Below, one piece after another: positions 3,151 through 6,495 of a stretch of 64,000 bases of DNA (positions within the stretch are counted from its first letter, which is position 1; every line of letters starts with the position of its first letter). The position numbers and the translations under genes were made by a program. The stretch lies in contig JAJPJX010000063.1 of assembly GCA_021324015.1 (NCBI GenBank), positions 1 to 64,000 on the forward strand, written 5' to 3'. The stretch comes from Solibacteraceae bacterium. GTDB lineage: Bacteria; Acidobacteriota; Terriglobia; Bryobacterales; Bryobacteraceae. The notes under the pieces are model-generated. The model had not been told where the DNA came from. It saw only the letters and a program-made list of their open reading frames with translations, and searched no databases.

Positions 3151-3168
3151 GACAGGTGTATACTGACC
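3151..3168 (+). promoter_or_regulatory. Putative -10 region of the MNIO/RiPP operon
   Basis: TATACT at 3159-3164 is a good -10 match about 104 bases upstream of the peptide gene. No convincing -35 lies 16-18 bases upstream, so an activator or another sigma factor may be needed. The 18 bases here match 16 of 18 positions of the region around the -10 upstream of the gamma-glutamyltransferase gene at 45836-45853. Confidence 0.35.
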
Positions 3169-3267
3169 GGAACCTGGATTCCGAAAGGAGAACCGGGTTC
3201 AGCGCACCCTTGTCGAGCACCCTCGGGGGCTGGGAAAGGGAAGTTGCAGCAGATTTCAGGAGGGTTT

Positions 3268-3498
3268 ATGACAGCCGAAGTCCGCGTGTCCAAAAAAGGA
3301 CCTAGCGGTGGTCCGACCGCCGAAATCCTGGTAGATAGCAAGGTCAACGCCAGCCAGTTAGGCGCTCTTATCCAGAACGTCACCACCAACAAGGCAGTTC
3401 TCTCCGCCGCCGGCCTGAGAGCCTGCGGCGGATGCAAGTCCGGCCTCGACATCAACATTCGCGACCGCTTCCAGGAAGTCATTCAGGTGGAAGTGTAG
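3268..3498 (+). CDS. Small Cys-containing peptide, candidate RiPP precursor for an MNIO enzyme
   Basis: 76-residue protein. The ATG at 3268 is chosen because an AGGAGG ribosome-binding site lies at 3258-3263; an open frame runs further upstream but has no such site. The N-terminal ~50 residues look like a leader: polar, then a helix with SQLGALIQNV. The C-terminal part carries the only two cysteines, C53 and C56, in ACGGCKSGLD, followed by a hydrophilic tail ending in VIQVEV. The gene lies 5 bases before a DUF692 enzyme and is followed by a DUF692-partner-like protein. This is the classic arrangement of precursor, MNIO enzyme and partner (methanobactin, 3-thiaglutamate and related pathways). 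Being the precursor is inferred from context and the cysteine motif. No signal peptide is visible. Confidence 0.65.
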   Translation: MTAEVRVSKKGPSGGPTAEILVDSKVNASQLGALIQNVTTNKAVLSAAGLRACGGCKSGLDINIRDRFQEVIQVEV

Positions 3499-3503
3499 TT
3501 TGC

Positions 3504-4409
3504 ATGCTGGGCGAAGTGCATCGGCCTGGGGTTGGAGCTCTCTTCAACCCCAGCATGCATCGGTTTGTCGATCGCGCCCTCGATCATGTGGACTACCTGG
3601 CATTCATCCCGGATCGCGGCTGGATCGACCGTGGTCCGGGCTCGCCGCAGCGTTTTCAGATGCTCCCCCAGGCCGCTGCGCTGCTGGAGCAGGTGGCGCG
3701 TGTGCGCCCCGTCGTCTTGCATGCGATCGGCCTTTCCATTTGTAGCGCGGACCTCTTCGATCAGCCCTATGCCCTCAACCTGATGGATTGGGCCGAGCGC
3801 CTTAACTCTCCCTGGATCAGCGATCACCTGTCATTTACCCGCATTGGAACCGGACATGAGGTGAATGCAGCCGTTCCGCTGCCCGTGCCCTACGACCAGG
3901 AAGTCCTCGGCCTGCTGATCCCCCGCGTGCGCCTCTTTACCGAGAGCCGGCGCTTCCGTTTCCTCTTGGAGAATAACGTTTACTACTTCTCGTATCCGGG
4001 CCAGGAGTTCTCGGAAGAGGAGTTTCTGAACCAGCTCTGCCGCCAATCCGGCTGCGGCGTGCTGCTCGATCTGCATAACCTGTATACCAATGCCCTCAAC
4101 CACCGCTTCAGCGCCACCGACTACTTAAGCAAGCTGGATCTGGCCCAGGTCACGGAAATCCACATCGCGGGCGGCGTGCCGATGATGGGTTTTCACACCG
4201 ACTCTCACACCGGGCCCGTGCTCGAAGGAGTCTGGGAATTGCTGGAGCATACCGTGCCGCTCGCCAGAAACCTGCGTGGTGTGACGTTCGAGTTCCACGA
4301 ATCCTCCTTCGGAAAGCTGGGCGAAGCCGGTATCCTCGAGCAGATCGCACGCGCGCGGGCCGTGGTGCAAGCGTATGTCCCTCAGAGACTTTCAGCACGC
4401 TGTAGTTGA
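3504..4409 (+). CDS. DUF692/MNIO multinuclear iron oxidative enzyme (MbnB-like)
   Basis: 301-residue TIM-barrel protein of the DUF692 (multinuclear non-heme iron-dependent oxidative enzyme) family, which modifies cysteines or other residues of ribosomal peptides. The family metal ligands are all visible: H73 (LHAIGLS), D107-H108 (ISDHLSF), E156 (LLENN), D189 and N192 (LLDLHNLY), H220 (EIHIAGG), D233 and H235 (DSHTGP) and E263 (TFEFHE). The ATG at 3504 is chosen because upstream codons overlap the end of the peptide gene; the N-terminus GVGALFNPSM matches the usual family start. The gene follows the Cys-containing peptide by 5 bases and overlaps the next gene by 35 bases, so the three are one operon. 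Confidence 0.9.
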   Translation: MLGEVHRPGVGALFNPSMHRFVDRALDHVDYLAFIPDRGWIDRGPGSPQRFQMLPQAAALLEQVARVRPVVLHAIGLSICSADLFDQPYALNLMDWAERLNSPWISDHLSFTRIGTGHEVNAAVPLPVPYDQEVLGLLIPRVRLFTESRRFRFLLENNVYYFSYPGQEFSEEEFLNQLCRQSGCGVLLDLHNLYTNALNHRFSATDYLSKLDLAQVTEIHIAGGVPMMGFHTDSHTGPVLEGVWELLEHTVPLARNLRGVTFEFHESSFGKLGEAGILEQIARARAVVQAYVPQRLSARCS

Positions 4410-4983
4410 TCTGACGCTGGTGCCGCACAAGGCCCGGGCATTGCGCCAAGGCGATGCCAGCGTGCTGGCGAATTTCGACCTGACCGCGCGCGAACGCGAG
4501 CGATTGCTCGACATCGTGCACCAGCCGGGGATGCGGGTCAGTTGCAGCCTGTCCCGGGGCAACCGCCTCGAGGTGATCGCTGAAGCCTTTCCGATGACCT
4601 GCGTTTTGTTGGAACCCGTGCTGCGCCAACTGCTGGACGAACTCTGGACCGAACGGCGCCCGGCCAACTACCAACTCGCCGGGGAGGACACTGCGTTCGC
4701 CGAACTGCTGGCGCGAAAGCGCGCTGCTAACGAGATCTGCATCGAATATCTCGATGAGATTTTCGCCTACGAGTTGAAGTGCCGGGAGATGGCACATCGG
4801 ATGCGGACTGAGACCACGGAAGTTGCCATCCAGACGGTGATCGAGTTTCAGCATCCGCCCGACATGCTCCTGGTGCCCCTTAGCCAACTCGCCGCGCCGC
4901 CCGCCGGTCTCCCTAGCGGCTTCTATCGCGCCCGAATTCAACTTCAGCATGGCCGCTTCGAAGTAGCGGTGCTTCCAGACTGA
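4375..4983 (+). CDS. MNIO partner protein (MbnC/DUF2063-like)
   Basis: 202-residue, mostly helical soluble protein that starts inside the end of the MNIO gene. It begins with the LRDFQHAVVDL pattern seen at the N-terminus of DUF692-associated partner proteins. It continues with RVSCSLSRGNRLEVIAE and FPMTCVLLEPVLRQLLDELW (about residues 54-91). Such partners form a complex with the MNIO enzyme and deliver the precursor peptide. The C-terminal ~60 residues are beta-rich and less recognisable. Identification relies on position and the N-terminal pattern, so the family name is less certain than for the enzyme. The following gene starts 75 bases downstream with its own promoter-like box. Confidence 0.6.
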   Translation: MSLRDFQHAVVDLTLVPHKARALRQGDASVLANFDLTARERERLLDIVHQPGMRVSCSLSRGNRLEVIAEAFPMTCVLLEPVLRQLLDELWTERRPANYQLAGEDTAFAELLARKRAANEICIEYLDEIFAYELKCREMAHRMRTETTEVAIQTVIEFQHPPDMLLVPLSQLAAPPAGLPSGFYRARIQLQHGRFEVAVLPD

Positions 4984-5058: not shown

Positions 5059-5784
5059 ATGAAACTCAGTGTTGGAATGCTCTCTCTGGGAGCGGCCGTG
5101 GGGATGCTGACGGGCGCCATGAGCGCCGCCGAGGAATTTCCCACCAAAGCGGGCGCCGTCAAAATCACCCCTATTCAGCACGCCAGCCTCATGATCGAGG
5201 CGGGCAGCCAGGTGATCTACATCGATCCGGCCCAGGGGAAGTACGACGGGCTACCGCCCGCGGACCTGATCCTCATCACCGATATCCATGGCGACCACAT
5301 GGCGCCAGCCGTGGTGCAGAAGCTCGCAAAGCCGGGCACGGTCATCCTGGCGCCGGAAGCGGTGGCCAAAACGGTGACGGGCGCCCGCATCATTCGCAAC
5401 GGCGAGACCCAGACCTTCGGCAAATGGCGGATCGAGGCCGTGCCCATGTACAACCTGACGCGCGGACCGCAACCGGGCAAGCTGTACCACGACAAGGGCC
5501 GCGGCAACGGGTACGTGCTTACCTACGGGGGCAAGCGATTCTACTTTTCCGGTGACACCGAAGGTATACCCGAGATGCGCGCGCTCAAGGGCATCGACGT
5601 AGCCTTCGTGTGCATGAACCTGCCGTATACCATGACCGCCGAGGAAGCCGCCGACGCCGTGCGCGCCTTCCACCCCAAGGTGGTGTATCCCTACCACTAC
5701 CGCGGCACCGACACACAGGCCTTCGCCAAGGCATTGGAAGGCTCGGGCATCGTGGTACGGCTACGGAACTGGTACCCGGGCTGA
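5059..5784 (+). CDS. Secreted MBL-fold metal-dependent hydrolase
   Basis: 241 residues with an N-terminal signal peptide (about residues 1-23, ending MSAAEE), so periplasmic. Metallo-beta-lactamase fold of the YtkL/UPF0173 type: HASLMIE near residue 41, the metal motif as TDIHGDH (D75, H77, D79, H80; the first usual histidine is aspartate), FSGDTEG near residue 170 supplying the bridging aspartate, and a C-terminal YPYHYRG histidine. Proteins of this kind hydrolyse esters, lactones or phosphodiesters, but the substrate is unknown. A TAAAAT box at 5047-5052 ends six bases before the ATG, which suggests a leaderless transcript. The gene reads toward the convergent DivIC/FtsB-like gene, with 18 bases between the stop codons. 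Confidence 0.85.
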   Translation: MKLSVGMLSLGAAVGMLTGAMSAAEEFPTKAGAVKITPIQHASLMIEAGSQVIYIDPAQGKYDGLPPADLILITDIHGDHMAPAVVQKLAKPGTVILAPEAVAKTVTGARIIRNGETQTFGKWRIEAVPMYNLTRGPQPGKLYHDKGRGNGYVLTYGGKRFYFSGDTEGIPEMRALKGIDVAFVCMNLPYTMTAEEAADAVRAFHPKVVYPYHYRGTDTQAFAKALEGSGIVVRLRNWYPG

Positions 5785-6174: not shown

Positions 6175-6495
6175 ATGACCGATAAAATTGTCGTGTTCAG
6201 CACGTGCAGCAGCAGCGAGGAAGCGGAGAAGATCGCCCGCCTGCTGGTGGAACAGCGGTTGGCGGCGTGTGTGAACGTGCTGCCGGGAATCCGCAGCATC
6301 TACCACTGGCAGGGAGCCGTCGAATCGGCCATCGAATGGCTGCTGGTGATCAAGTCGCGGCGCAGCCTGTTCGATCTGCTCCGCAACGCCCTGGAAAAGG
6401 CGCACTCCTACGAAGTGCCGGAAGTGCTGGCCCTTCCTGTGGTGGACGGCTCGCCGAACTATCTGAGCTGGCTGGAGGGCGAGTTGCATGCCTGA
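6175..6495 (+). CDS. cutA: Divalent-cation tolerance protein CutA
   Basis: 106-residue cytoplasmic protein of the CutA family, which forms trimers related in fold to PII. Family marks are the N-terminal VVFSTCSSSEEAEKIA, RLAACVNVLPGIRSIYHWQG, KSRRSLFDLL and the C-terminal YEVPEVLALPVVDGSPNYLSWL. The ATG at 6175 gives the usual length; open sequence upstream belongs to the intergenic region. The last eight bases overlap the start of the HAD phosphatase gene, so the two are probably coupled. CutA was named for copper tolerance, but its physiological role is not settled. Confidence 0.95.
   Translation: MTDKIVVFSTCSSSEEAEKIARLLVEQRLAACVNVLPGIRSIYHWQGAVESAIEWLLVIKSRRSLFDLLRNALEKAHSYEVPEVLALPVVDGSPNYLSWLEGELHA

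Follow-up and report, generated by a model that had tools for sequence, protein, structure and literature searches.

A compact operon of three genes, coding for a small peptide with a CxxCxSG motif, an MNIO and an MNIO partner protein, is found on the forward strand of contig JAJPJX010000063.1 of a Solibacteraceae bacterium, of which the whole stretch of 64,000 nucleotides that was analysed is referred to as the window. It is fairly probable that the peptide is an MNIO-modified, signal-less substrate of the kind associated with PME-type 2 partners, that the second of its cysteines is oxidised, and that it persists as an uncleaved cytosolic mini-protein, perhaps with a metal site. Comparison with relatives shows that the genes for peptide, enzyme and partner stay together and that conservation of the peptide centres on the CxxCxSG loop; on these sequence grounds, the system looks real and little studied. 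The 76-residue peptide, the putative MNIO substrate, is encoded at 3268..3498 (+), and a 5-base gap separates its stop codon from the ATG of the 301-residue MNIO (3504..4409, +), which overlaps by 35 bases the gene of the 202-residue partner (4375..4983, +). An earlier note on this DNA had given the coordinates and frames, the ribosome-binding site, the positions of the cysteines and the spacings, all of which direct reading confirmed.

The peptide gene is preceded by a Shine-Dalgarno sequence, AGGAGGG (3258..3264, +), the last base of which lies 3 bases before the ATG at 3268, and purine-rich stretches also precede the peptide genes of relatives in an upstream alignment. The same 160-base upstream alignment reveals a possible -10-like element, TGTATACTG (3157..3165, +), with TGTATnCTG present in six of eight loci (the window and L039-L043; absent from L044 and L045), which is graded as weak because a consensus scan found no sigma-70 site. 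C53 and C56 are the sole cysteines of the peptide, within ACGGCKSGLD, with 52 residues preceding C53 and 20 following the cysteine pair. The CGGCKSG motif (C53, C56, S58 and G59; residues 53-59, encoded at 3424..3444, +) is, from the sequence and the alignments, the presumed modification site in the cysteine-bearing region GLRACGGCKSGLD. No signal peptide was recognised by eye, the N-terminus (MTAEVRVSKKGPSGG) being without a hydrophobic segment, and the genome of the window holds one copy of the peptide.

Despite two occurrences of C..C.SG among the 127,996 six-frame residues of the window (the peptide and one 60-codon minus-strand frame), a chance origin of the CxxCxSG peptide is ruled out because of its conservation and of codon-level constraint among close relatives. 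dN/dS is 0.09-0.27 in the six listed pairs of at least 64% identity, indicating clear purifying selection on the coding sequence among the closer pairs. For the two named relatives that are most remote it amounts to 0.41 and 0.56, at a dS near 1.1 where the estimate is poor. The most conserved stretch is that of residues 49-68, with a mean identity of 0.84 versus 0.53-0.80 elsewhere in eight sequences.

The predicted model of the peptide, of middling quality (pLDDT 70, pTM 0.55, with residues 69-76 under 50), consists of strands 3-8 and 17-22, helices 28-40 and 42-47, the CxxC loop and a strand at 61-66. The C-terminal tail of about 17 residues, previously described as hydrophilic, would therefore not simply be so, since the model turns part of these 15-17 residues into the last strand. 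Structure searches with the model returned no convincing known fold (best Z 4.1): 4-OT tautomerase, the MamM/MamB cation-exporter domain and Ohr all scored Z 4.1 or lower and no relation is claimed, nor did peptide or partner match any PHROG family. The residues after the SG resemble the F[N/D]LD box of TglA (PMC9016710, in part), yet they lie only four residues from C56, and the idea was dropped because this distance is too short for the 50-55 A quoted there.

The enzyme is certainly, by its sequence, a member of the MNIO family (DUF692, PF05114; MbnB/TglH/ChrH), with a Pfam E value of 3e-51 and 174.6 bits against a cut-off of 25, and it is the only match to PF05114 in the 8.2 Mb genome (98.8% complete). 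Its expected metal ligands, already recognised in the earlier note, are borne out: H91, E135, D165, N168, H194 and D209 align directly to H108, E156, D189, N192, H220 and D233, that is to six of the eight iron ligands of VcMbnB (PMC8888699, in part), and H73 and E263 match a His and a Glu of TglH and are taken by position as the remaining two. The score stays below every NCBIfam equivalog cut-off, the best match being BufB (157 bits versus 310), followed by HvfB (117.5/360), ApyH (102/400), ChrH (46/600) and MbnB (17.5/325 bits).

The third protein, described beforehand as partner-like, contains no Pfam or NCBIfam domain, and its predicted fold is that of TglI. Its AlphaFold2 model (pLDDT 82) matches TglI with Z 12.1 over 139 residues, MbnC coming second with Z 4.6 and all others at 4.0 or below; Foldseek gives a probability of 1.00 and an E value of 0.012 for the same pair. 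The match spans partner residues 59-202 and TglI residues 62-218. In TglI the RRE extends from residue 171 to 269 and is built of three strands and three helices (PMC9016710, in part), and that of the partner looks cut short because the match stops at TglI 218; judging from the model, the partner probably retains helical domain and strands but lacks the last RRE helices. By its predicted fold, it is a partner of the PME-type 2 kind of PMC12452194 (in part), with a DUF2063-like fold but no DUF2063 signature, and, as a control, the partner of L019 does match DUF2063.

Conservation of the peptide next to homologous DUF692 genes, a check named beforehand, was found throughout the nearest type. Among 257 genomes of the order, the seven strongest other MNIOs (E 4e-63 or better) are those of L006-L010, at 65-80% identity, L011 (49%) and L012 (42%); the MNIO of L047, found in two pieces (44% and 36%), is next by profile score and third-best outside the profile's own rows, and L046 is a fragment of 52% identity at a contig end, without upstream DNA. 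A CxxCxSG peptide lies directly upstream of the MNIO in all eight loci with readable upstream DNA (L006-L012 and L047). Profile A2 gave five matches over 396 genomes of the phylum, namely the operons of the window, L035 and L036, and also L037 and L038, which are chance matches whose same-strand open reading frames show no MNIO; with these removed, the operon is rare (3/396 genomes, the window's own included). A weak peptide match in L004 was likewise set aside as chance. A pattern scan of named genomes returned 90 matching stretches, of which seven were confirmed, from Bryobacteraceae, Bryobacterales, Candidatus Solibacter, Terriglobia and three Acidobacteria MAGs, and their translations equal others already in the set, so that the nearest type comprises 11 distinct loci in total. 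In every one of the 11 the peptide directly precedes the MNIO and C53, C56, S58 and G59 are kept. The suggested invariance of C53, C56 and the SGLD tail thus holds for both cysteines and the SG, and L60/D61 vary a little (F in L043 and L045, N in L045). Coverage beyond the phylum was thin, consisting of one narrow pattern over named genomes, plasmids and viral contigs; plasmids gave no peptide match, none of the 59 and 55 pattern-matching stretches in viral contigs was confirmed and, in the absence also of a PHROG match for peptide or partner, a phage or plasmid origin was rejected.

Only peptide, MNIO and partner recur in the flanks examined, which cover 13 loci (two genomes entered twice) and extend from about 1.5 kb to at least 5 kb. 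No exporter, protease or tailoring enzyme recurs in these flanks, in agreement with the absence of an adjacent exporter first remarked in the window, and no metal-related gene recurs beside the operon there. A long open reading frame common to L039 and L042, TonB-dependent-receptor-like by eye, occupies unequal positions and was taken as coincidence. In the window itself, a metallo-beta-lactamase-fold protein (Lactamase_B_3, 5059-5784), with a signal sequence by eye, is encoded on the same strand 75 bases past the operon and does not recur beside relatives; a CutA1 divalent-ion tolerance gene (6175-6495), about 1.2 kb downstream, is probably also a coincidence.

A maximum-likelihood tree built with care from 51 MNIOs places the 20 enzymes whose small peptides carry CxxC and, by eye, no signal apart from 31 others (support 100/99.9), which are of the oxazolin-like, TIGR04222-like, bufferin and other types, and the nearest type forms a group of its own (97/92). 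This tree leaves aside the long branches L013, L057, L059, L062 and L067 and includes L058 as a partial row; in a quick tree of all 56 rows, with the five long branches, support for the CxxC branch is 75 and L013 falls inside the nearest type. A mechanical scan found a CxxC open reading frame within 450 bases upstream in 20/20 rows of the CxxC set and in 6/31 of the others (L018, L020, L025, L030, L048 and one of L066), none of the latter being similar by eye. Tree split and upstream scan agree, so that precursor type follows enzyme lineage. As to the labels, 'oxazolin-like' covers 13 rows, with a CKG-repeat precursor read for eight and the rest named after the MNIO, 'TIGR04222-like' was assigned from Ser/Gly/Cys-rich tails rather than by a family search, with L048 a doubtful case, and several of the 31 rows have no recognised precursor. 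Within this taxonomic order, CKG-repeat-rich oxazolin-like precursors stand before the MNIO genes in L018, L019, L021-L024, L028 and L029. Plasmid MNIOs amount to 351 records, and of three regions read two are bufferin-type by annotation and one is from Burkholderia stagnalis; on this last plasmid, an alanine-rich precursor with many CAA (alanine-cysteine) repeats (L067:3713-3946) accompanies the MNIO, its neighbours being genes for two methyltransferases and a radical SAM protein.

The wider CxxC group presents several variations on this arrangement. In L050 (1220-3257) and L051, MNIO and partner are fused into a single protein of about 500 residues, which is preceded by a protein containing two CxxCxSG repeats, 191 residues long in L050 and 152 in L051; the loci of L051 and L058 lie on reverse strands. 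L058 resembles them, with two CxxCxSG repeats and a split MNIO frame, and in L057 (841-2564) a peptide with HxxCxSG lies beside a 494-residue fusion. The partner profile matches behind the MNIO domain in L050 (E 1.6e-3), L051 (1.2e-2) and L058 (2.3e-3) and gives no match to the second half of the L057 fusion (E 0.65). That relatives encode both as fusions suggests, at the level of sequence, that enzyme and partner act together. Other peptides carry GCxxCGR (L014-L016 and L092), GCxxCGL (L017 and L027) or CNCMSG (L013); the GCxxCGR and GCxxCGL types precede MNIOs of the same tree branch, and the SG after the second cysteine is lost in relatives of types B and C. Wider relatives within the order keep the same outline of strand, helix, cysteine loop and strand. 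Similarity between types by hhalign is modest (probability 84, 36 and 68%; p 7.5e-6, 3.8e-4 and 5e-5 as single comparisons) and comes mostly through the cysteine motif. In profile A9, made from the whole set, the second cysteine is present in 14/14 rows and the first in 13/14 (His in L057), four rows being repeats of two proteins. A9 finds 18/257 genomes of the order (21 places) and 4/396 of the phylum, all matches lying beside an MNIO and most being training rows or their close kin, with G335, G480 and G456 outside the profile; it missed the GCxxCGL peptide of L027. In L059, a 66-residue peptide (reverse strand, 1498-1698) with a single cysteine and no CxxC precedes a divergent MNIO.

In the mechanism that we favour, the partner, with its helical domain, three strands and apparently cut-short RRE, would grip the peptide, holding it by its sheet, and would feed the CxxCxSG loop into the iron barrel of the MNIO, where molecular oxygen and the multi-iron centre would oxidise C56 and possibly C53 too. 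C56 is the likeliest target because the second cysteine is invariant in all 14 rows of the wider profile and the first is His in one. With neither leader cleavage nor export, the whole 76-residue mini-protein would be the product and might stay in the cytosol, a weaker step because it is deduced from what is missing. Together with the neighbouring cysteine (a His in one relative), the altered one may then form a metal site, for which copper is the likeliest guess by analogy with other MNIO products; a metal ligand at position 53 is proposed because the Cys-to-His swap in L057 fits one. A bolder version, which we put forward tentatively and regard as somewhat doubtful, is that MNIOs of a distinct Acidobacteriota clade act on a folded cytosolic mini-protein that is never cleaved, introducing a new modification into its CxxCxSG loop to create a genetically encoded metal or redox site, and that the same module also occurs as tandem-repeat substrates with a fused enzyme.

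Of the other explanations, the one that survives best is that the peptide belongs, as an ordinary representative from a different phylum, to the adjamnio-7 (or adjamnio-1/-2) precursor family and shares its chemistry, a serious possibility that falls short of an even chance. The named adjamnio examples are from Massilia, Hahella and Novilysobacter, which are Pseudomonadota, whereas the seven named relatives found here, in a thin search outside the phylum, are all Acidobacteria. The term 'Acidobacteri' is absent from the main text of PMC12452194; nevertheless, the adjamnio-7 precursors described there are signal-less with CxxC, and those of adjamnio-1 and -2 lack a signal too and have PME-type 2 partners, like the peptide of the window (PMC12452194, in part). 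The general kind is, indeed, already known, since a publication of 2025 (PMC12452194, in part) describes both precursors that lack a signal and have PME-type 2 partners and the CxxC group adjamnio-7; the probable novelty once suggested for the pathway is thus only partly supported, and its belonging to an already named family, as compared by description, is conceivable on balance rather than expected. The literature searched contains no description of CxxCxSG precursors from Acidobacteriota and none for DUF692 with Solibacter, and PMC12452194 is the only source found there in which MNIO, CxxC and RiPP come together.

That the peptide is a cytosolic copper buffer like captophorins or bufferins, its cysteines being converted into copper-binding 5-thiooxazoles, is unlikely. 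5-Thiooxazole is the product of the bufferin/oxazolin branch and unites the largest MNIO groups (PMC13097082, in part), bufferins absorb near 305 nm (PMC12452194, in part), the His replacing the first cysteine in L057 suits a ligand role, and BufB is the best NCBIfam match of the enzyme. However, this match is far from the BufB cut-off, the MNIO lies outside the bufferin/oxazolin branch, neither a signal peptide (by eye) nor a DUF2063 partner is present, and the PME-type 2 systems TglH, ApyH and PbsC carry out other chemistry (PMC12452194, in part). Conversion of the CxxC mini-protein into a redox or catalytic cofactor-bearing subunit of another enzyme, rather than into a metal buffer, is an equally unlikely outcome: the small folded domain predicted by the model, the lack of a recurring protease or exporter, the single copy in the genome and the presence of just two cysteines, unlike in Cys-rich buffer peptides, would suit it, but no gene for a partner enzyme recurs beside the operon in the flanks. 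It is improbable that the peptide is a small Cys-bearing accessory and the MNIO acts on something else, as might be argued from the literature examined, which shows no modification for this clade, since the gene order is that of known MNIO precursors (PMC12452194, in part), precursor type tracks the MNIO tree, and the two repeats of L050, L051 and L058 have CxxCxSG in common but differ elsewhere.

The reactions of MNIOs are diverse and can hardly be foreseen from sequence, and few substrates could be simpler for reading a new one than this peptide, with both cysteines in a single loop and an operon of three genes free of tailoring enzymes. If the product is truly the whole folded domain, MNIO chemistry would extend from peptides to encoded cofactors in proteins, and the tandem-repeat, fused and Cys-to-His forms would be natural variants bearing on which cysteine is used and on how the partner presents the loop.

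Among known systems, methanobactin (MbnA-MbnB-MbnC) differs in that the MbnB family model scores only 17.5 against 325 bits here and no further gene recurs in the operon, although the iron ligands are common to both enzymes and MbnC is the second match of the partner. Bufferins and oxazolins (captophorins) show the same order of precursor, MNIO and partner, cysteine motifs and PF05114, but they have Sec signals, more cysteines and DUF2063 (PME-type 1) partners, and the MNIO described here belongs to another branch. Adjamnio-7, -1 and -2, compared by description, are signal-less likewise, with CxxC in adjamnio-7 and PME-type 2 partners in adjamnio-1 and -2 (PMC12452194, in part). The earlier note had seen in the locus the minimal gene set of MNIO-modified peptides such as 3-thiaglutamate; peptide, MNIO and partner are indeed there, and the likeness to 3-thiaglutamate is loose, given that TglB adds a Cys at the scaffold C-terminus in the pearlin pathway, whereas C53 and C56 are genetically encoded within the peptide and the flanks contain no recurring TglB-like gene. 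Even so, the TglA-TglH-TglI system offers close parallels: the partner shares its fold with TglI, albeit with 202 residues and aligned to TglI 62-218 only, the MNIO aligns with TglH along residues 9-263, and the TglA scaffold is signal-less and places 50 residues before its target Cys (PMC9016710, in part), compared with 52 here.
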